Assembly (NCBI RefSeq): GCF_024181385.1
Contig: NZ_CP051305.1
Location: 2,604,001-2,668,000, forward strand
Reading direction: 5' to 3'
DNA length: 64,000 nucleotides
DNA from: Treponema sp. OMZ 798
GTDB lineage: Bacteria; Spirochaetota; Spirochaetia; Treponematales; Treponemataceae
Part shown: piece after piece, positions 50,960 through 62,494 of the stretch
Layout: each line of letters begins with the position of its first letter
Numbering within the stretch: position 1 is the stretch's first letter
The notes under the pieces: model-generated
The model's database searches: none
What the model saw: the letters and a program-made list of their open reading frames with translations, nothing else
Told to the model about the DNA's origin: nothing
Translations under genes and position numbers: made by a program

Positions 50960-51613
50960 ATGAAGATTTTAGTTACAGGTTTTGATCCTTTCGGAGGGGA
51001 AAAGGTAAATCCCGCCCTCGAAACGATTAAGCTCCTTCCCAATCAAATCTTGGGAGCACAAATTATCAAGCTGGAAATTCCGACCGTTATCGGAAAATCC
51101 GTAGCAAAGATAAAAGAAATGATTGAAAAAGAAAATCCCGATGTTGTTTTAAGTATCGGTCAAGCCGGAAACCGTGCCGATATTTCGGTAGAAAGAATCG
51201 GTATAAATATTGACGACTGCCGAATTCCCGACAATGAAGGCAATCAGCCGATTGATGAGCCTGTTGTAAAAGACGGCCCTGCTGCCTACTTTGTTACTTT
51301 ACCGATTAAGGCCATTGTCGAGAAGGTAAAGGCAGGCAAAATACCTGCTTCAATATCGAATACGGCAGGGACATTTATCTGCAACCATGTTTGCTACGGT
51401 GTTGCTCATATTGCAGCCGCAAGAACAGCCCAAGGCAAGCCGATGAAAAGCGGCTTTATTCATATTCCGTTTTTGCCCGAACAGGCTGTCGGAAAGCCTG
51501 CAACAACTCCCTCGATGAGCCTTGAGATGATTGTAAGGGGAATCGAACTTGCAATAGAAGCCATTGTCGAAAACGATGCCGATATAAAGGTTTCGGGCGG
51601 CAAAATTTGCTAA
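50960..51613 (+). CDS. pcp: Pyrrolidone-carboxylate peptidase (pyroglutamyl-peptidase I)
   Basis: Removes N-terminal pyroglutamate from peptides (peptidase family C15). A 217-residue protein with catalytic E78 (VERIGIN), C141 ([11 protein letters not shown]) and H168 ([11 protein letters not shown]). The N-terminus [16 protein letters not shown] is typical. Follows DUF979 by 14 nt with AGGAG upstream. Confidence 0.95.
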
Positions 51614-51701: not shown

Positions 51702-52802
51702 TTATATTTCTTCGTCCGTATCCGTGCCGGTTTTTTTGTACAATTTCCAGTTTTTATTTTTAGCAGCGGTAACTGCATTCGCCAAAGCTTCCGGTGTTGT
51801 AAAATCGGTTACATTACCCGTTTCGCCTTCTTTGTACAATACGGCCTTCCCCTCCGTCTCGGCGGAAGTTCTATCCGGCAGGGTATTTAAAAGCGTTGTA
51901 AAGGCGTCTTTATTCAAGTCATTGTTATAACACTCTATTTGTTTTAAAGCGGTACAGTCTGTAATATTTATCTCGTTCAGTTTGTTCCCATGGCATAATA
52001 CGGTTTGCAGCTGATTAAGACCGCTTATATCCAGTTTTGCTAATTGGGTACAGCCGGTTACGGTAAGCTCTGTAAGCTTATTTGACTTACAGTTTACTTC
52101 TGTCAAAGCCGTTAAATTACTGAGATTAAGTGCCGACAAATTGTTGGTTTCGCAGTCAAGCTTTGTTAAAGCGGTACAGCCGGTCAGCTTAAGTTCGGTA
52201 AGATTATTTTGCCAACACTCCGCTTTAGTCAAGTTGTTTAACCCGCTGAGGTCGAGCGATGTCAGCTTATTTTTTCCGCATTCAAGGCTTTCAAGGTTTT
52301 TACATGCTTGTATATTAAGAGCAGTAAGTTTATTCTCCGCACATGCTAAATGGGTTAACTGCGAATCGGCAGGAAGAATAAGGCTGTCCAGCAGATTTTT
52401 ATTGCAGGTTAAGCTTGTAAGCGTTTTACATCCTGAGGCATTTATTTTCAGCACGGCTTGGTTAGGACAGTTTAATCCTATAATATCGGCACCGGTTTGA
52501 GGCTTTAAGATGATGATTCTGTTTTTTGCCGTTACATTTTCGTATGTATCATGCGGAACGGAAGATGCGGTACATTCTTCGAGTTCAATCGGTGTGCCGT
52601 TACTGCTTTTTACGTTAATATTTATCGTCTTTTTATCCCGACTTACTACCAGCGAAATACCGCCTTCGACATAGGGTGCGGAAGGAACGGAATCCTGTGA
52701 GCCGGAGGTGATGCCAGGGTAGGCTCCCTTATTATAGGGACAGGCGGTGTACAGCATAAGAATAAATATGCTTATAACTGTATATTTTGCAATATTTTTC
52801 AT
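51702..52802 (-). CDS. Leucine-rich-repeat lipoprotein
   Basis: A 366-residue lipoprotein with signal peptide ending in LYTAC (lipobox). The middle contains about 9-10 LRR units of 21 residues (L..L.C..N.LT.L.L.G...), close in style to the LRR lipoprotein at 18922-20715. Both share a non-repeat C-terminal module (here LLNTLPDRTSAETEGKAVLY to NKNWKLYKKTG). AGGAG before the ATG. Probably a surface adhesin-type protein; the ligand is unknown. Confidence 0.85.
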   Translation of the reverse strand: MKNIAKYTVISIFILMLYTACPYNKGAYPGITSGSQDSVPSAPYVEGGISLVVSRDKKTININVKSSNGTPIELEECTASSVPHDTYENVTAKNRIIILKPQTGADIIGLNCPNQAVLKINASGCKTLTSLTCNKNLLDSLILPADSQLTHLACAENKLTALNIQACKNLESLECGKNKLTSLDLSGLNNLTKAECWQNNLTELKLTGCTALTKLDCETNNLSALNLSNLTALTEVNCKSNKLTELTVTGCTQLAKLDISGLNQLQTVLCHGNKLNEINITDCTALKQIECYNNDLNKDAFTTLLNTLPDRTSAETEGKAVLYKEGETGNVTDFTTPEALANAVTAAKNKNWKLYKKTGTDTDEEI

Positions 52803-53009: not shown

Positions 53010-54524
53010 ATGAAAACAATATTAAACAATATAATGGCAGCTGCTATAATATGCTGCATTTTTTTATTTGCGGGATGCCCTAATTCGGCAATACCGAAAA
53101 CTGATATAAACTCAAATGCACCGCTTAATCCGCAGAGACAGCCGGGCGATTTGTTAAAAGAGGATATTATGAGCGCCTTTGCTTTAACAAAGGGAAATAT
53201 AACCGCCTCCGATGCGGCAAAAAAAATCCGTGATACGGATCCTTCTGAGGGTTCGGTGCTGACCTTTACCGAAAAAGCAATTACCGCCTACGATGATAAG
53301 GCCGGAACCTTTACCGTAAAGGTAAAGGGCACAAAAGGAGAAAAGTCCTTTGAAAAAGAATTGACCTTTACAGGCTTTGAAAATCCCTATGCAAAGATTT
53401 TTCCTTCCCTAAGTGCAGCAGAATTGGATTTTTCGGACGCTATAGAGCACAATAAAACATTGGATACCTTTATTTCGGATGCGGCCGGTAACTCCGCTCT
53501 TTTAAAAAAGCTGTCTTTCAGTGATGATAATGCCGGCACTCTCAGTTTGGGAGTTCATGACCGTTACAGCTTAGCCGCGGCATTGGAAAAAAACGGAGAT
53601 AAAATAAAAATAATACCCGTATATAAAGTAAAATATTTAAAAAAAGAAGCGGGAGAGAGCGAAACTTCAACGGAAACGGATAGAAGTGCTTTATTTGCAC
53701 GCTTGGGAGCCGACCTTACAAAGCCCTATTTTTCGAAAGAAGATGTGTTTAGGTATCTTATAAACAAAACCGATGACGGTATTATCAATGTATCTGCCGA
53801 TGTGTTCGGTTCGGAATATTATGCTTTTGCAAAGCACCTTAGGGTAACACCTGCGCGTCTTATAAATGATGCCCATATACAAACAATTATGGCCCGTTAT
53901 AATCGGGAGGGCGGACAGTTCAATATGGAGATGGACACGGCTTTATTTCATCCGGAAAACGAAGGTATAAAGGCGGATGATATTGAAGGAACTCTGGAAA
54001 TAACTTATTGTATTGCCGAAAAGGAACAAATCGCAGAAATGCTTTCTTCCAAACCCGACCCTTCCGTACGGCGCATAACCGTAACAAAAACGGCAAAGGC
54101 GGCAGGGTTTAAAAAGATTCCTAAAGACAATATAGCGTCTTTATTTAATTTTTCCGTAAAGGTAAAAGATGACCCAAATTCGCGTCAAAAATGGCAACAT
54201 AAAGTTTTTGAAAACTACCGCTTTTTATCGGAACAATACGATACCGAAAGAGAGATGACGATGTTTGCGCTGGAAAATCCCTTACAAAAGACAGCGGTTT
54301 CCGCATTTTATTTGGAAGTAAACGGCAGGGAACCTGAAGACGTTTTAGCCTTTAACGAGCCTATATCCTATTCAAAAACGGCGGACGGTAAACATATTTT
54401 TATAAAATATGTTTATTTGAATAAAGAAAGCGGAAGCGATAAACTCAAAGTACATATAAACTTTACCGGTGAAGGCGAAGAAATCGCTTTGGAAGTAAGT
54501 CCGGAATATGTCATCGGGAATTAA
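53010..54524 (+). CDS. Lipoprotein of unknown function
   Basis: A 504-residue lipoprotein; signal peptide MKTILNNIMAAAIICCIFLFAGC with lipobox LFAGC followed by PNS. An early domain (about 48-135: AFALTKGNITASDAAKKIRD ... FTVKVKGTKGEKSF) resembles the Lipoprotein_17-type segment of other treponemal lipoproteins. The rest is unrecognised, mostly beta-rich. A second gene in the cluster shares the CPNS motif after the lipobox. It lies just upstream of the tandem IdeS-like genes. Shine-Dalgarno GGAG before the ATG. Confidence 0.75.
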   Translation: MKTILNNIMAAAIICCIFLFAGCPNSAIPKTDINSNAPLNPQRQPGDLLKEDIMSAFALTKGNITASDAAKKIRDTDPSEGSVLTFTEKAITAYDDKAGTFTVKVKGTKGEKSFEKELTFTGFENPYAKIFPSLSAAELDFSDAIEHNKTLDTFISDAAGNSALLKKLSFSDDNAGTLSLGVHDRYSLAAALEKNGDKIKIIPVYKVKYLKKEAGESETSTETDRSALFARLGADLTKPYFSKEDVFRYLINKTDDGIINVSADVFGSEYYAFAKHLRVTPARLINDAHIQTIMARYNREGGQFNMEMDTALFHPENEGIKADDIEGTLEITYCIAEKEQIAEMLSSKPDPSVRRITVTKTAKAAGFKKIPKDNIASLFNFSVKVKDDPNSRQKWQHKVFENYRFLSEQYDTEREMTMFALENPLQKTAVSAFYLEVNGREPEDVLAFNEPISYSKTADGKHIFIKYVYLNKESGSDKLKVHINFTGEGEEIALEVSPEYVIGN

Positions 54525-54806: not shown

Positions 54807-56744
54807 ATGAAAAAAATTAAAACACAGTTAACGGATTATACTATGAAACAATATACAAAAAAACATAGACCAAGGGGCCGGCTTTTTTTAAACCTTTTCG
54901 GGGTGGCTGCCCTTATTTCGGTTTTGGCACTCGGATGCTCGGCCCCTATAAAGCCGGAGACGTTAAAATATGAGGTACAGTTTGAAGTCGAAGGCGGAGG
55001 CGGCCGGCTTAAGGCGGCGGTTGACGGAAAAAGCATTGCATCCGGTGCAAAAGCCGTAAGCGGCAAAACCGTAGTTTTTACCGCTGAACCGGGCGAGGGT
55101 TATGTAGTAGCAGGCTGGAATGTTAAAGGCGGTGAGATAGTATCGGGAAGAAACGAGGGTGATTTAACTGCGGCGGTAAAACTTACTTCCGATGCATCGG
55201 TAAAGGTATTGTTTAAGCAAAATCCTGCTTCGGGACAAGTGCCGGCATCTTCCGATCAAGGTACGGTTCCCGTCAAAAATATAACTTTTAAGGGAAAAGA
55301 TACACAAGATGGTACGGAATTTGCGATAACGTATTCTATGAATCTTGAACTGAATAAACCGTATCGGCTTATCCCCGTTTTCGACCCGCCCGATGCTTCG
55401 GACAAAAACCTGCAATACGAGGTAAAAAAAGGCGATATTTCCGTTAGCCCCGAAGGAATTATTACGGTAAACGGCATCGGAAATGCCGAAATCACGGCGA
55501 GAGCGTCAAACGGACGCGAGTACACTATGTACTTTAACATTAAAGACGATTATACTTTTAAGGTTGAAGGTAAAAAGGAAATAAAACACAGCCGCGATGC
55601 TTTTACCGAAACGCTTGTTATTGAAAAAAAATATAACAGTACCAAGTATGTGCTGACGGTTAATCCTGTAGTACCTTGGCTGACTGTGGAAAAATCAGGC
55701 GAAAACACAAAAAAAGAAACGCTTACGCTCCGTATCTCAGAAAATAAAGCACCCGTGCCCAGAATGGTTTCGCTGACTGTTTCAAAAATAGAACCGGCTA
55801 GGCGAGGAAAGCAACAACAAAAAACAGTACACAAGCTGACCATTACCCAAACTCCAAACCTCGTTGACCCCAAGCTTATTACAAAGTGGGTGCACGGCAT
55901 TACACCTCCGGCGGAAGGCGAAATTAAAACCGAAACGGGAACTGATGTGCGTTACCGCAAATGGGAAGAAACCGCACATACTACATGGTTTAATGCCCGC
56001 AAGCTCCGCTACACGCAAAACTATCGTTCGGTTACGGATGCCAATATGTGCTGGGCAATGTCTACCTCCGACCTTTTACATTGGTGGATGCGGGAAAACA
56101 AAGACAACCTTGAACGCTATATGCGAAAAAAAGGAATTACATCCGGTAAAGCCGAATATTTATATTACACGGGCGAATACAAGGGCGGTTTAGGCGATAT
56201 AGGCGAAAAAGATAAAAGCAGCATTGCAAATGTATTCCGCAAGGGGTACGGCGATGTCGGGTTACAGTTACACACCGCCGTTAATTGGTATTTACGCGGC
56301 GTTTCCAACGGTTCACAAAAGATTGCTCCGCCCGGTATTGTGCAAGACGTATTTACGGGACAGGAAGATTTAAACAAGCTGATAGAAGTCCGTTACGCGC
56401 ATAACAAAAAAGAGTTTGAAGATATGATAAATGGTGCTTTAAATGATGGACATGCTATTGCCGTTGTTATAAAACCGAAAACCAATATTATCGATCCGCT
56501 GCATGTCGTTACCGTTTGGGGCGTTGTTTTTGACGAAGACGATAACATCGTTGAACTGTGGACTTCCGATTCCAATGACAGAAACTCGCATATTGTAAAA
56601 TTCGGCGTATATTATCCTGATGGAATACCGCATAAAATAAACTATGCTGCTCCGAACGATAAGGGAGACACCCGCATTGAAGAAGTAGCTGTTATGAAAT
56701 CGGCAAAAAAAGAATTTAAAGCATGGCTGGATGCCGCGAACTGA
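54807..56744 (+). CDS. IdeS/Mac-like cysteine protease lipoprotein 1
   Basis: A 645-residue multidomain lipoprotein (lipobox LALGC, Cys 44). Domains in order: an InlB-like B-repeat/Flg_new_2 segment (~55-138), a Big_2-like domain (~155-246), a BACON-like domain (~265-350), then a C-terminal domain (~355-645) matching the streptococcal IgG protease IdeS/Mac (peptidase family C66). Conserved there: GITPP, K399 in WFNARK, C415 in MCWAMSTSDLLHWW, H566 in LHVVTVWG, and D588 exactly 22 residues after the His, as H262-D284 in IdeS. K399 to C415 is 16 residues, against 10 in IdeS. Whether the substrate is immunoglobulin is unknown. Confidence 0.85.
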   Translation: MKKIKTQLTDYTMKQYTKKHRPRGRLFLNLFGVAALISVLALGCSAPIKPETLKYEVQFEVEGGGGRLKAAVDGKSIASGAKAVSGKTVVFTAEPGEGYVVAGWNVKGGEIVSGRNEGDLTAAVKLTSDASVKVLFKQNPASGQVPASSDQGTVPVKNITFKGKDTQDGTEFAITYSMNLELNKPYRLIPVFDPPDASDKNLQYEVKKGDISVSPEGIITVNGIGNAEITARASNGREYTMYFNIKDDYTFKVEGKKEIKHSRDAFTETLVIEKKYNSTKYVLTVNPVVPWLTVEKSGENTKKETLTLRISENKAPVPRMVSLTVSKIEPARRGKQQQKTVHKLTITQTPNLVDPKLITKWVHGITPPAEGEIKTETGTDVRYRKWEETAHTTWFNARKLRYTQNYRSVTDANMCWAMSTSDLLHWWMRENKDNLERYMRKKGITSGKAEYLYYTGEYKGGLGDIGEKDKSSIANVFRKGYGDVGLQLHTAVNWYLRGVSNGSQKIAPPGIVQDVFTGQEDLNKLIEVRYAHNKKEFEDMINGALNDGHAIAVVIKPKTNIIDPLHVVTVWGVVFDEDDNIVELWTSDSNDRNSHIVKFGVYYPDGIPHKINYAAPNDKGDTRIEEVAVMKSAKKEFKAWLDAAN

Positions 56745-56771
56745 AAATTGTGAGTTTTTAGAAACACAATG

Positions 56772-56797
56772 TCCGCACGCTGATAATGCGCTGCGGA
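56772..56797 (+). promoter_or_regulatory. Intercistronic hairpin
   Basis: TCCGCA.CGC/GCG.TGCGGA around loop TGATAAT, with one bulge, no T-run after it. It lies between the two protease genes and may stabilise the upstream mRNA. Confidence 0.5.
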
Positions 56798-56817
56798 TAT
56801 ATTTTAAGGAGATTTAA

Positions 56818-58440
56818 ATGAATAAAAAACGGATATTATATGCAGGTTTATTCGGTGCTCTTACGGCGCTCATTGTACTGCTTGCCGGCTGTCCGAATAG
56901 TCTCGCAAAAACAAACCCTTCCGGCGGCGGTACTGTCAAACCGCACTCGGGACAGGGACAAAACCCGGACAATTCCGGGCAGCCCGCTCCGTTTATACCG
57001 AAGTATGTTCCGGTAACTGAAGTTGTTCTTCACGATGTAAATGATGAACTTATCGAAGAAGATACTACTTTACCGGTTAAGTTGGGGGAACAGTTTCAGC
57101 TGAAACCCGTTATTAAACCGGAAAATGCGACAAATAAAGAAGTGAAATATACGTATGAGGAGAATCTGGTTTCAGTTACGGAAACCGGTCTGGTTACGGC
57201 AATTGGAAAAGGAACTGCAACCGTTAATATTTGGGTCGACGGTAAGAAACGTACTTCTATCCGTTTCCAGATAAAGGACGATTCTACGTTTGTGTTCAGC
57301 CAGCCGAAAATAGAATCCGATCATCAGGCTTCCTCTACGGTGTTGTCTGTTGCAAAAAAAACACAATATTCAACATATAATTGTACCGTCAGATATGCTT
57401 ACGGGAACGGCAATTGGGTGGAAACGACATCTGTTTCGGCAGAGAATATTGATACAATTACCGTAAAGCTTAAAGAAAATAAATCGGCATTTGAACGAAG
57501 GGCTTATCTTGTATTTAAAACCAATACTGCCAAACCAACCCTCATTCGTGAAATACCGATTATTCAAAAAGTTTGTCCCGCTCCCGTGCTTAGAACCGAA
57601 TGGGTGCACGGTATAACACCGCCTTCCGACAGTGAATTGGAGCACGGCGGGCATAGTGTAAATCCCAAATATGGTGTCTGGAAAGAAACTCAAACGACTA
57701 TGTGGTTTAATGCAAAAAAATCACAAGATAATACAGATGATCAGATGTGTTGGGCAATGTCAACCGCCGATCTTTTACATTGGTGGATGAAGCAAAATGA
57801 AGAGAACCTGAAGCGTGTTATTCAACAAAAAGGCATATCTCCCGATACTGATGACTATAAATTATATCTGGGTGAATATAATAGAAATTTATCGGAGCGA
57901 AAAAGCGGTGTTGCCAATGTGTTCCGAAAGCGTTTTAAAAATAGTGTGCACGGTACTGCATTAAATAGTGCTGCCGGCTGGTATTTATTGGGTATGACTG
58001 CCGGAGGAGAGCTAACCCCTCAGTATAGTGCCGAACCGGCTCCCGGTATTGTACAAGGTATATTTTCCGATTTAAATGATTTGATAGTACCACGCTATGT
58101 GCACAACAAAGAAGAATTTGAAAACACAATAAAGGATGCATTTGATAAACACAACGCTCTTGCAGTGCAGTTTATATTGGGGAACAACGCCGGTCTTCAT
58201 GTTGTTACCGTCTGGGGTGTTGAATTTGATGCCGATGACAATATAACTGCATTATGGGTTTCCGATTCCAATGATGCAAACTCCCATCTTACCAAATTCG
58301 GGGTGCATTATCCCGATGGAAGGCCGCACAAAATAAATTACGCTGTAGCTAATGATAGCGGGAAAACGCTTATCACCGATGTAATTACCATGAAAAACGC
58401 AAAAGAGCAATTTAAAACATGGCTGGATGCTCATCCGTAA
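56818..58440 (+). CDS. IdeS/Mac-like cysteine protease lipoprotein 2
   Basis: A 540-residue lipoprotein (lipobox LLAGC, Cys 25). After a proline-rich linker come a Big_2 domain (~65-152), a BACON-like domain (~170-252), then the C66-like domain (~258-540). The catalytic constellation has exactly the IdeS spacing: K301 ten residues before C311 (QMCWAMSTADLLHWWM), H461 (HVVTVWG) and D483 22 residues after it. The region around C311 reads HWWMKQNEENLKR, near the IdeS HWWFDQNKDQIKR. It lacks the InlB-like repeat of protein 1 and has a C-terminal end very close to it (KINYA..ND.G ... FKTWLDA). GGAG before the ATG. Confidence 0.87.
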   Translation: MNKKRILYAGLFGALTALIVLLAGCPNSLAKTNPSGGGTVKPHSGQGQNPDNSGQPAPFIPKYVPVTEVVLHDVNDELIEEDTTLPVKLGEQFQLKPVIKPENATNKEVKYTYEENLVSVTETGLVTAIGKGTATVNIWVDGKKRTSIRFQIKDDSTFVFSQPKIESDHQASSTVLSVAKKTQYSTYNCTVRYAYGNGNWVETTSVSAENIDTITVKLKENKSAFERRAYLVFKTNTAKPTLIREIPIIQKVCPAPVLRTEWVHGITPPSDSELEHGGHSVNPKYGVWKETQTTMWFNAKKSQDNTDDQMCWAMSTADLLHWWMKQNEENLKRVIQQKGISPDTDDYKLYLGEYNRNLSERKSGVANVFRKRFKNSVHGTALNSAAGWYLLGMTAGGELTPQYSAEPAPGIVQGIFSDLNDLIVPRYVHNKEEFENTIKDAFDKHNALAVQFILGNNAGLHVVTVWGVEFDADDNITALWVSDSNDANSHLTKFGVHYPDGRPHKINYAVANDSGKTLITDVITMKNAKEQFKTWLDAHP

Positions 58441-58458
58441 GATGAGTTTTTACCGTAG

Positions 58459-58494
58459 AAAAAAAGGCTCCGCCGATTTGGGGAGCCTTTTTTT
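58459..58494. terminator. Bidirectional terminator
   Basis: 13-bp stem AAAAAAAGGCTCC/GGAGCCTTTTTTT between the convergent second protease gene and the CZB chemoreceptor. Confidence 0.9.
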
Positions 58495-58504
58495 ATCAGC
58501 CGCT

Positions 58505-60997
58505 TTAGTGCAAGCCCGTTTCATTTTTTAGGGCGGTTACGGCAGCGGTAATTTCATTTGAAGCGGTGCTGAATGAACTTCCCGTATTGAGCATAGCTTC
58601 CGCTTCGGTAAATTTTCCGTCATTAATTGCAAAGGCTACCTTGCCCGCTTCAACATGAAAAGCGGCATGTTTAGCTACACAGTTTTTGTATGAGGCCAAG
58701 TTACCGTATTTTGTTTTTGCTTCTCCGTGCAGCCATTTTCCGAATTCGCATTCCGAATCCTTAGAAATGATTCCTGCATCAAGTTTTTCCTTTGTTGATA
58801 TTGCTGCCCTAAGTTTAACCTTCCAATCTACATGAACTTTGACTGCATTAGTAAGATTAATGCCGGAAGTTTCCTTTTTTGTTTTTACGAGGCTTATTTC
58901 GCCGCTTACTTTGAATTTTCCTACTTCCTTAACAAGATTATCAATGCTTTGTTTATTTTTTTCAGTTATTACAGCAACATCTTCCATTGCATTACCAATA
59001 TGGGCAGCTCCTTTAGCAATCTCATTCATACTGCCGGTTATAACATGGGTTAGGCCGTCCAGTTTATTCATTTCCTCTGCGACCCCTTCTCCGCCTTTGA
59101 GCATTTCTTCCGAACCTGCTTGAACTTCGGCGGTAATTCTGTTTATGTCTTTGATGGCCATCAACACTTCTTGACTCCCATGCTGCTGCTCCGCCATGGC
59201 ATTCATCAAAGTTGTGCTCATTTGTTTTACTTGCTCAGATAGGTTGAAGATAGCATTAAACTTTGATTCAGCCGTCTTTGCAGAATCAGACAATATTTCG
59301 ATTTCTCCGGATAGGTTTTTTAATGTTGAGGTAATTGTTTTTCCCTGAGTACTTGATTCTTCTGCAAGTTTTCTGATTTCATCGGCAACAACGGCAAAAC
59401 CTTTTCCTGCTTCTCCTGCATGGGCCGCTTCGATGGCTGCATTCATAGCCAAAAGATTTGTCTGACTTGCAATGTGTTGAATAACCGTCGAAGCTTCCAA
59501 TAAGCCGCCTGACTCTTCGGATATTTTTTGTGTTACTGTATTTGCGTTTGTAACGGTATCTTTACCGTCTGCAGTGGCTTCTGCAAGAGTTTTAATAACA
59601 TTATCGGTTTTTCCCAGAGTGTTTGTTATGGAGCTTATGTTTGCGACCATTTCTTCAATAGCCGAAGATGATTCGGCAACACTCGCTGCTTGACTTTCAA
59701 TACTGCCGTTAAGCTGTTTTATGGTACGGATTATTTCTTCTACTGTGGCGGCTGTCTCGGTAACACTTGCCGCCTGTGTCATTGCTTGCTGTTTTACATC
59801 TTCAATGTTTGCAGTGATTTGTTGAACCGATCCGGCTGTTTCATTCATATTGCCGGCAAGTTCGGTTGCTATGTTTTCCATTGTTACGGTATTCACTCCT
59901 ACAGCCTGAATGGAATCTTCTATTTTTTTGATTGTTTGGTTAAAGTAATTCGATAGATCGGTGATTTCGTCATTTCCTTTAAGCGGAAGTCTTACCGTTA
60001 AATCGCCTCCCCCTTGTGAAATATTTTTTAAGGCTGTAACGACTCCGTTAATAGGTTTTACAATGCGTAATGCTACAAGGAAAATTACGATAAGGGAGCT
60101 TATTAAAATAATTATACCCACGATATAAAGGGATTTTTTTAAGATAGCGATTGTTCCCATAAATTCGTCTATTGGTGCGGAAATGATAACCGTCCAATCC
60201 GTTACTTTAATATGAGCGAAAGAAGCTATTTCAAGCTCATCTTCCCAATAAAAAGAACCTACTGCCGGCTCTTTTTCGGCTAGGGCTTTTTTTTCGAACG
60301 CCGCTATGCTTGCAAAAGCCGGATCATTTTTTGCTTTGTTCTCGCTTGATTCAAGTTTTGAAACAAGACTTAAATCTTTATCGGCAATTGTTATTCCGCT
60401 TAGGCCTATGATATAACAGCCGCCTGTTTCTCCTACGGTTATATCTTTTATTTCGTTTGATAAATGAAGCCCGTTAATGGCTGCTGCCAGCACACCTATT
60501 ATTTTGCTGTCGCTATTATAAATGGGAACAGCATATACGCTGATTAAAGAACCGTCAGAGCGGGATGTTATCGGTTCTGAAGCAAATCGTTTACCTGATG
60601 CGGCGGTCTTATACCATGCAAGGTCTCCTACAAATATAGTGCCTCCGGTATTTGCATAACGGTTACCTTTCATGTCTGTTATATTCAGTTCTAATATAGT
60701 TTTATCCAAGGCACTTTGTTTTTGTAAATATCGTGATTTTTCAAGATAGCTTGTTTCTGTATCGCTCAGTACAGGAGATCTTGCAATGCCTTCCAAAAGT
60801 TGAAAGAAGGCATTTATCCTGCCGTCTATAATTTCAGCCGTATCCTTTGCCTTATCGATTAAGTGAGTTTCCGCTTTTTCTTTTACAGCTGTTTCGGCAA
60901 TGTTTACAGCTAAGATACCAAAGATAAAAAGAGCAAGGCTTACCAATAATCCGAAAATAACAATTAATTTATTACGGATAGAAAATCTCTTTTTCAT
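58505..60997 (-). CDS. Methyl-accepting chemotaxis protein with CZB zinc domain
   Basis: An 830-residue chemoreceptor. TM1 lies at residues ~12-32, the periplasmic dCache_1 sensor at ~40-285 ([32 protein letters not shown]), TM2 near 300-320, then HAMP and a full signalling tip ([17 protein letters not shown]). A C-terminal CZB domain (last ~110 residues) has the His-Cys-His-His pattern: HVDWK, CEFGKWL and KHAAFH. CZB binds zinc and in other bacteria senses hypochlorous acid or zinc. Start ATG at 60997 with GGAGGAG upstream. 60 nt downstream of pncB, maybe read-through. Confidence 0.93.
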
Positions 60998-61057
60998 AAT
61001 ATTCTCCTCCAAAATTGAATACTTTAATTTACTTATAAATAACCGGCTTTTTCTGCC

Positions 61058-62494
61058 TTAGCTTTTAAAAACCGGTTTTGCTTTTATCAGCTGCTGTTTT
61101 AAATCTCTCATCTTTTCGCTTAAAGAAACCTTGTATATATGGGGATTTAAAAGACGTTTTGAGGTATAGTCTAAACTATCAAGCTGCTTTTCGGCATAGG
61201 TTTTGATTTCTTTTAGAGACGGTACTTTACCGACAGCCTTACCGTTTTCAATTCGTTTTTCTAAAAGAGCCTCGGCCTTTGCTGGCGTAAAGGTAAAATT
61301 CTGGTAGTCATTTGCTGGATGATAAAAGGTCTGTTCTACACCCTCTTCAATTTTTTCGTTTTCAAGACTTAGAACATCGGCCTTAAAAGTACCGTCAGAA
61401 TTGTAAAGCCGCCAAACCTGTTTGCTTGCAGGATTAGTCATCTTTGCAGGATTATCCGAAAATTTCATAACCGGAGTCCATTCCGTTTCTTCTAAACTCT
61501 TACGAGCAGCCATTTTATATACTCCTGTAAGGGAGGCTTCATTTCCGCCTGTAACCATGTGGGTTCCGACTCCCCAAGAATCTATGGGAGCATTGTTTTG
61601 GACAAGGGATTCTACAATTTCCTCCGTAAGTTCATTTGAAACGGAAATCTTTGCATTGGGGCAGCCCGCTTCATCTAGGCGTTTTCTTACATCTTTGCTC
61701 AAATAATAAATATCGCCTGAATCAAGGCGTACACCGAAGTTTTTTTCCTTTTTTTGCAGACGCTTTCCAACCTTGATAGCGTTTACGATTCCTGAACGGA
61801 GGGTATCATAGGTATCTATTAAAAATATCGAATTATCCGGATAAATGTCGGCATAGGTTTGAAAGGCCTCCTCCTCGCTTTTAAATGACATTATCCATGA
61901 GTGGGCCATTGTTCCGAGGGCCGGTATGCCGAGTTCTTTGGCAGCAAGGGAGTTGCTTGTGCCGAAGGCTCCTCCTATGTAGGCAGCTCTTGTTGCACTC
62001 ATAGCCCCGTTGTTGCCCTGTGCTCGGCGAAGACCGAATTCCATTATAGAGCCTTTTTTTGAAGCCAGCCAAATTCTGGCGGTTTTTGTTGCTATGAGGG
62101 TTTGAAAATTTATCATGTTTAAAATTAGACCTTCTAAAAGCAGGGCTTCAACCGTATCAGCCTCAACTCGGATTAAGGGTTCATTCGGAAAAACGACGCT
62201 TCCTTCTTTCATTGCCCAAATATTGCCTGAAAATTTAAAGCCGGCAATATAGTCTAAAAATTCTTTTTCGAATATTCCGAGGGATTTTAGCCACTCGATA
62301 TCGCTTTTTTCAAAGTGAAAATTTTGAATAGTTTCTAAGAGGGGTTCAAGGCCTGCAAAGACGGCATAACCGCCCTTAAAAGGGTTCGATCTAAAAAACA
62401 TTTCAAATACGGTTTTTGTGTTATTTCCTTTTTTCCAAAAACCTTGAGCCATTGTCAATTCATAAAAGTCTGAAAATAAAGCGTTATCAATCAT
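61058..62494 (-). CDS. pncB: Nicotinate phosphoribosyltransferase
   Basis: First step of the Preiss-Handler NAD salvage path: nicotinate and PRPP to nicotinate mononucleotide. A 478-residue protein with DFYELTMAQGFWKKG, MFFRSNPFKGGYAVFAG, the SATRAAYIGGAFGTSN and GTMAHSWIMSF segments and the VRLDSGD motif. Shine-Dalgarno GAGG. 25 nt downstream of ftsK on the same strand, so it may be in the same transcript. Confidence 0.95.
   Translation of the reverse strand: MIDNALFSDFYELTMAQGFWKKGNNTKTVFEMFFRSNPFKGGYAVFAGLEPLLETIQNFHFEKSDIEWLKSLGIFEKEFLDYIAGFKFSGNIWAMKEGSVVFPNEPLIRVEADTVEALLLEGLILNMINFQTLIATKTARIWLASKKGSIMEFGLRRAQGNNGAMSATRAAYIGGAFGTSNSLAAKELGIPALGTMAHSWIMSFKSEEEAFQTYADIYPDNSIFLIDTYDTLRSGIVNAIKVGKRLQKKEKNFGVRLDSGDIYYLSKDVRKRLDEAGCPNAKISVSNELTEEIVESLVQNNAPIDSWGVGTHMVTGGNEASLTGVYKMAARKSLEETEWTPVMKFSDNPAKMTNPASKQVWRLYNSDGTFKADVLSLENEKIEEGVEQTFYHPANDYQNFTFTPAKAEALLEKRIENGKAVGKVPSLKEIKTYAEKQLDSLDYTSKRLLNPHIYKVSLSEKMRDLKQQLIKAKPVFKS

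Follow-up and report, generated by a model that had tools for sequence, protein, structure and literature searches.

Tandem predicted Mac/IdeS-family lipoprotein proteases in Treponema sp. OMZ 798 and a likely swap of the second gene's catalytic domain

The window analyzed here, a stretch of 64,000 nucleotides (nt) from Treponema sp. OMZ 798 (contig NZ_CP051305.1, positions 2,604,001 to 2,668,000 of the forward strand), contains two open reading frames (ORFs) on the + strand, separated by 73 nt, that encode predicted lipoprotein proteases of the Mac/IdeS family. We refer to the proteins as W1 (gene 1) and W2 (gene 2), to their catalytic domains as heads and to the domains preceding them as stalks; all positions are those of the window. 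What this analysis adds to the initial annotation, which missed it, is that the head of gene 2 has likely been exchanged as a block between related treponemes. Among the papers listed by searches of the open-access literature, none with an account of this mosaic was found.

Layout and family of the two proteases

Both proteins match the Pfam profile Mac-1 (PF09028) above its curated cut-off of 20.3 bits, W1 over residues 359-595 (E 8.6e-16) and W2 over residues 262-530 (E 1.2e-14), and both catalytic domains are predicted to adopt the papain-like Mac fold, so that the kinship to IdeS/Mac and the fold proposed in the initial annotation hold for both (Table 1). In MEROPS, the peptidases of PF09028 are designated C66. 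The possibility of a new protein family was rejected, since the Mac-1/IdeS family is already characterized; W1 and W2 themselves are without a study found in the open-access literature. Judged by titles and the opening lines of abstracts, PMC11833123 and PMC3747143 were the only listed papers with a bearing on these proteins, and OMZ 799 is not named in the excerpts of PMC7256273.

Table 1. Features of the tandem protease locus (positions in the window)
Feature	Position	Strand	Basis or remark
Gene 1 (W1), 645-residue predicted lipoprotein protease, alpha head	54807..56744	+	ORF; PF09028 58.3 bits
W1 N-terminal extension, 13 codons	54807..54845	+	first 8 codons are those of the G001 236-residue lipoprotein gene
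W1 Cys44, predicted lipidated (..LALGC)	54936..54938	+	sequence by eye
W1 InlB B-repeat (residues 71-139)	55017..55223	+	PF18998 (Flg_new_2) 27.6 bits, cut-off 23.6
W1 Big-type domain (residues 152-249)	55260..55553	+	
W1 BACON-like domain (residues 250-350)	55554..55856	+	
W1 Mac/IdeS catalytic domain (residues 359-643; K399, C415, H566, D588, N590)	55881..56735	+	
Gene 2 (W2), 540-residue predicted lipoprotein protease, gamma head	56818..58440	+	ORF; PF09028 54.5 bits
W2 Cys25, predicted lipidated (LLAGC)	56890..56892	+	sequence by eye
W2 Big_2 domain (residues 63-154)	57004..57279	+	
W2 BACON-like domain (residues 157-253), counterpart of T-Mac N-120	57286..57576	+	
Exchanged block (inferred)	57568..58484	.	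two-change-point fit and sliding identity against G001
W2 Mac/IdeS catalytic domain (residues 258-540; K301, C311, H461, D483, N485)	57589..58437	+	
W2 catalytic C311	57748-57750	+	
W2 catalytic H461	58198-58200	+	

The catalytic Lys, Cys, His and Asp were recognized in W1 and W2 by alignment. For IdeS, the excerpts of PMC11833123 consulted here give Lys84, Cys94, His262 and Asp284 as the catalytic-site residues, and for the Treponema denticola protease T-Mac they give Asn585 as the third triad residue and Glu583 as the counterpart of IdeS Asp284; the alignment places Asn485 and Asp483 of W2 at these two positions. An IdeS-like layout had been claimed on the basis of spacings, and these were confirmed in W2 (10 for K301-C311, 22 for H461-D483) as well as in W1, which has the same His-Asp spacing (H566-D588) and the longer Lys-Cys loop that had been noticed (K399-C415, 16). 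The His-Asp spacing is nevertheless ruled out as a hallmark of IdeS, as 52 of the 55 treponemal Mac rows share a spacing of 22.

The relatives used for comparison were drawn from 52 retrieved proteins (P numbers), 22 of which entered alignment A2 and 21 alignment A3, each together with W1 and W2. All 24 rows of A2 share the Lys, Cys, His, Asp and Asn residues. In the wider treponemal set of 55 rows, 44 have K-C-H-D-N, five have K-C-H-E-N with a Lys-Cys spacing of 32-33 (the T-Mac pattern) and form a clade apart in the head tree, and the residual six are divergent or poorly aligned. A Lys-Cys spacing of 10 occurs in three of the 55 rows only, W2, P0001 and P0002; six other rows have a spacing of 7-9, each of them divergent or poorly aligned. 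Several of the closer relatives (P0001-P0008 and P0035) are labelled 'IdeS/Mac family cysteine endopeptidase', P0006 and P0007 are unlabelled, and no published function was found for any of the nine in the open-access literature.

Among solved structures, both catalytic domains are closest to T-Mac (TDE0362, 'dentipain'; PDB 9arc, 9mdk, 9mdm and 9mdo), which scored 100.1 bits for W2 and 113.3 bits for W1, versus 63.2 and 53.4 bits for IdeS. The likeness appears to extend into the stalk: in the predicted structures, W2 152-540 aligns to 9arc 211-647 and W1 250-645 to 9mdk 214-647 in one stretch across the BACON-like and Mac domains, and both proteins have a BACON-like/N-120 domain immediately N-terminal to the Mac domain, as in the T-Mac subgroup. 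T-Mac N-120 (residues 211-324; W2 counterpart 157-253) resembles BACON by profile and fold; the excerpted literature describes N-120 as Ig-like (immunoglobulin-like) and likens it to PapD-like chaperones. In the T-Mac subgroup the D284 position is occupied by Glu, and Lys and Cys are 32-33 apart (33 in T-Mac), whereas here the residue is Asp and the spacing is 10 (W2) or 16 (W1), and for this reason W1 and W2 were not filed as T-Mac itself. T-Mac further differs in carrying two Big domains, where W2 has one and W1 combines a single Big-type domain with an InlB repeat; unlike T-Mac, the window has two genes in tandem, with heads that appear to be exchanged between relatives. IdeS/Mac-1 of Streptococcus pyogenes (1y08, 2au1, 2avw, 8a47) and IdeC of S. 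canis (9hb1, 9hb2) share 17-22% identity with the window enzymes, which unlike them are predicted to sit on Ig-like stalks with a lipid anchor. The excerpts of PMC11833123 refer to homologues in T. socranskii and T. vincentii, and those of PMC3747143 list one from T. pedis with 26% identity.

The initial annotation had described both proteins as lipoproteins on Big_2 and BACON stalks, and the profiles bear this out in part. The Big_2 domain of W2 is above the profile cut-off (29.6 bits, cut-off 22.8), while the BACON matches fall below theirs of 25 bits, W2 slightly (PF13004, 24.2 bits) and W1 further (19.8 bits, weak), and the Big-type domain of W1 is recognized by fold only. The lipobox-like motifs, judged by eye, would be consistent with lipidation. 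Once exported by Sec and lipidated, the stalks would come to lie on the cell surface.

An AAGGAG motif lies near the start of each gene, within 28-nt contexts that are 82% alike. The W1 relatives P0007 and P0008 start at W1 Met14, making 54846 a possible alternative start for W1. The syntenic genome G001 (locus L018), in which the gene order is that of the window, has an additional gene for a 236-residue lipoprotein with InlB repeats (L018 6906-7616) immediately 5' of its first protease gene. This gene is absent from the window, where its ribosome-site-like sequence and first eight codons are retained in frame with the W1 start; because they are kept in frame, W1 may start 13 residues before its relatives. 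Promoter and terminator scans were near chance, with 19 matches versus a mean of 14.1 (standard deviation (sd) 3.8) and 7 versus 6.4 (sd 2.6), respectively.

The mosaic of gene 2

Against its G001 counterpart, W1 DNA is 85-97% identical in 150-base windows. W2 DNA is 90-94% identical across 56701-57450 and 81% in 57451-57600, falls to 62-70% from 57601 to 58500, the region of the head, and regains 86-97% identity 3' of the head as far as 59100. A two-change-point fit (gain in log-likelihood 112) placed the diverged block at 57568-58484, with support intervals of 57564-57572 for its start and 58481-58519 for its end; the fit scores gap columns as differences, so that identities inside and outside the block are underestimated, and its outside-block value of 0.864, which includes unaligned end columns, is too low. 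The 5' edge coincides with the end of the W2 BACON-like domain (residue 251) and the 3' edge lies shortly past the stop codon. Odd base composition was rejected as a mark of the block, since its G+C content is 0.416, where the stalk has 0.428, the window 0.383 and the G001 gene 2 head 0.435. From the pattern of identity, homologous recombination has likely replaced the W2 catalytic domain in a single block, with the stalk staying in place.

Proteins from related treponemes point the same way. W2 is 99% identical to P0001 from Treponema sp. OMZ 799, and W1 is 93% identical to P0008 from unclassified treponemes. Three head types can be distinguished, alpha (W1, P0007, P0008), beta (P0003, P0004, P0005, P0035 and G001 gene 2) and gamma (W2, P0001, P0002), with P0006 and P0042 assigned to none, and judging from the alignments these types are combined with stalks in varying pairings. 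Protein identity of W2 to G001 gene 2 and to P0003 is 82% in the stalk and 55% in the head, and the corresponding values are 76% and 55% for P0004 and 66% and 54% for P0005, whereas P0002 reverses the relation with 59% and 85%. P0035 has a distinct stalk, 33-38% identical to the others (39% to P0006 and 23% to P0042), on a head that is 83-87% identical to the remaining beta heads. A search with the gamma head alone (nine proteins) yielded no donor beyond P0001 and P0002.

An alternative explanation is that no recombination took place and that the catalytic domain, which would face the host and may undergo diversifying selection, simply evolved faster under positive selection, giving rise to the block of 62-70% identity. 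Faster evolution of the head is difficult to reconcile with relatives whose heads are the more similar part (85% for the head versus 59% for the stalk between P0002 and W2; 84% versus 38% between P0035 and P0003), or with block edges near a domain boundary and shortly past the stop codon. Stalk and head trees were built from 13 rows, including ten P proteins and omitting G001 gene 1, which is identical to P0007; at least three changes of head type are required on the stalk tree. In approximately unbiased (AU) tests, for which the clades were chosen once the identity table was known so that the p values lean towards rejection, head data reject the grouping of W2, P0001, P0003 and G001 gene 2 (p 1.4e-9), and the stalk data lead to rejection of both the gamma set (p 1.1e-5) and the beta set (p 2e-42). 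The AU tests thus argue against a single shared tree, and on their account positive selection without recombination was rejected; we consider it very improbable.

Taking these lines of evidence together, we think it fairly probable that the locus encodes two adjacent surface proteases of the Mac/IdeS family on Ig- and BACON-like stalks, the head of gene 2 having been swapped as a block. Several points weigh against this account. Besides the choice of clades, the whole beta-stalk clade is rejected weakly by the head data (p 0.024), the beta head clade has a bootstrap support of 65 (Shimodaira-Hasegawa-like approximate likelihood ratio test (SH-aLRT) 99), and the mosaic at the DNA level was traced against a single syntenic genome. 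No study of the activity, substrate or localization of W1 or W2 was found in the open-access literature, and T-Mac, the basis by analogy for their substrates, differs in its Glu residue, its Lys-Cys spacing of 33 and its separate clade. Furthermore, diverged blocks in the neighboring chemoreceptor and leucine-rich repeat (LRR) lipoprotein genes indicate that the region may recombine often, and because these genes carry such blocks, exchange is no peculiarity of the protease.

The LRR lipoprotein (51702-52802, - strand; LRR_4 matches) is 73% identical to its G001 counterpart at the protein level, and its gene has a diverged block at 52201-52500 (67-80%) together with a length difference. The chemoreceptor (58505-61012, - strand) is 87% identical, with a diverged block at 59701-60750 (69-84%, the sides mostly 87-97%) that is perhaps the sensor part. 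Other flanking proteins, such as those at 50960-51613, 53010-54524 and 61058-62494, are 96-100% identical in G001. The 53010-54524 product, immediately upstream of W1, is a lipoprotein with a Lipoprotein_17 domain (PF04200, 51.4 bits) and is 98% identical in G001.

A Mac-1 match was present in 27 of 145 genomes sampled from the family, and among these 27 two adjacent Mac-1 genes occur in G001 alone, a count that could miss highly divergent second copies. A further genome, G008, has two unlinked genes, and the remaining double rows are fragments of one frame. P0004 and P0008 come from contigs whose greatest length is the same (3,093,697), a match that suggests paired genes in other strains. Pattern scans of genome contigs for relatives matched 26 and 180 stretches with zero confirmed. 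A wider BACON tree, built to look for head exchange in other treponemes, was short and poorly supported; it held 47 of 55 sequences, two near-duplicates and six divergent or poorly aligned rows having been omitted. Sixteen remoter Mac proteins (P0036-P0051, 436-908 residues) are known in many cases from environmental or metagenome sources only, and 12 of them have the Hyaluronate lyase N-terminal beta domain (PF21461), mostly together with several Big-type domains.

Loop changes, substrates and meaning of the head exchange

What might a change of head accomplish? Five loops, measured between fixed anchor residues (W2 numbering), have other lengths in gamma heads than in alpha and beta heads: the Lys-Cys segment (17 residues in alpha/beta, 11 in gamma), 354-362 (13 and 9), 370-379 (8 and 10), 392-409 (12 and 18) and 447-461, which ends at the catalytic His (17 and 15, with 14 in P0002). 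According to the excerpts of PMC11833123, the T-Mac cleft is bordered by residues 478-483 and 550-560, and since these align, by a hand count, at about 375-380 and 451-460 of W2, both T-Mac cleft loops are among those altered. The same excerpts cite Sudol 2022 for the PBL loop as the chief contact of IdeS with IgG, and the W2 loop at about 451-460 would be the inferred equivalent of this loop. The length changes around the cleft support an altered specificity, as far as sequence can indicate one, so that swapping a gamma head, with its catalytic residues kept and five loops resized, for another would alter the substrate or the site of cleavage.

For T-Mac, the excerpts of PMC11833123 describe a lipoprotein signal peptide, cutting by PrtP and presence in the supernatant, N-terminal Big domains that bind FPR1 and CXCR1, and a C-terminal half that is a cysteine protease cleaving C3, C3b, C4 and factor H; they report no cleavage of IgG, IgA, C5 or C4bp, and sensitivity to serum of a TDE0362 deletion mutant. 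The excerpted part of PMC3747143, citing Ishihara 2010, terms dentipain an IgG-specific protease, which conflicts with the negative IgG assay. By analogy with T-Mac, Cys311 and His461 of W2 with Asp483 or Asn485, and Cys415 and His566 of W1 with Asp588 or Asn590, may cleave host immune proteins, of which complement (C3, C4) or other opsonins would be the likeliest substrates. The emphasis of the initial annotation on IdeS and an antibody target is shifted by this comparison, both domains being nearer to T-Mac, which spares IgG and IgA in the excerpted assays, and the antibody target is weakly supported. It could be argued that W1 and/or W2 cut the hinge of IgG or of another immunoglobulin, given the IdeS fold and catalytic residues, the Asp at the D284 position and the Lys-Cys spacing of 10 that W2 shares with IdeS. 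We consider this unlikely in view of the sequence relation and the T-Mac assays (PMC11833123), and the loop leading up to the catalytic His, which we equate with the chief IgG contact of IdeS, varies among heads.

Surface-exposed enzymes are antigens. The two proteins may be redundant T-Mac equivalents that cut complement, their heads differing in antigenicity only and the swap serving escape from antibody. The invariant catalytic residues and the variation in the LRR lipoprotein and chemoreceptor genes on either side are consistent with such a role, but two of the five resized loops align with the T-Mac cleft loops in the hand-counted alignment, and we regard redundancy as a serious possibility without thinking it probable. 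Another mechanism, which we advance tentatively, is cassette-like replacement of heads between Treponema strains on a fixed, lipid-anchored stalk, amounting to a recombination-driven switch of specificity. A single locus would then supply proteases for different host immune proteins: one head would act on complement and the gamma head possibly on immunoglobulin or another opsonin, with the neighboring protease as the more constant of the pair.

The excerpts of PMC11833123 treat T-Mac as a virulence factor and leave as an open question what sets cleavage of IgG versus complement. Natural heads borne by closely related stalks, with differing cleft loops and the catalytic residues kept, provide a ready comparison for addressing it. 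Where the catalytic domain moves as a block, annotating by the conserved stalk or by whole-protein identity would also mask which enzyme a strain has. If the substrate follows the head, closely related treponemes would disable different arms of host immunity.

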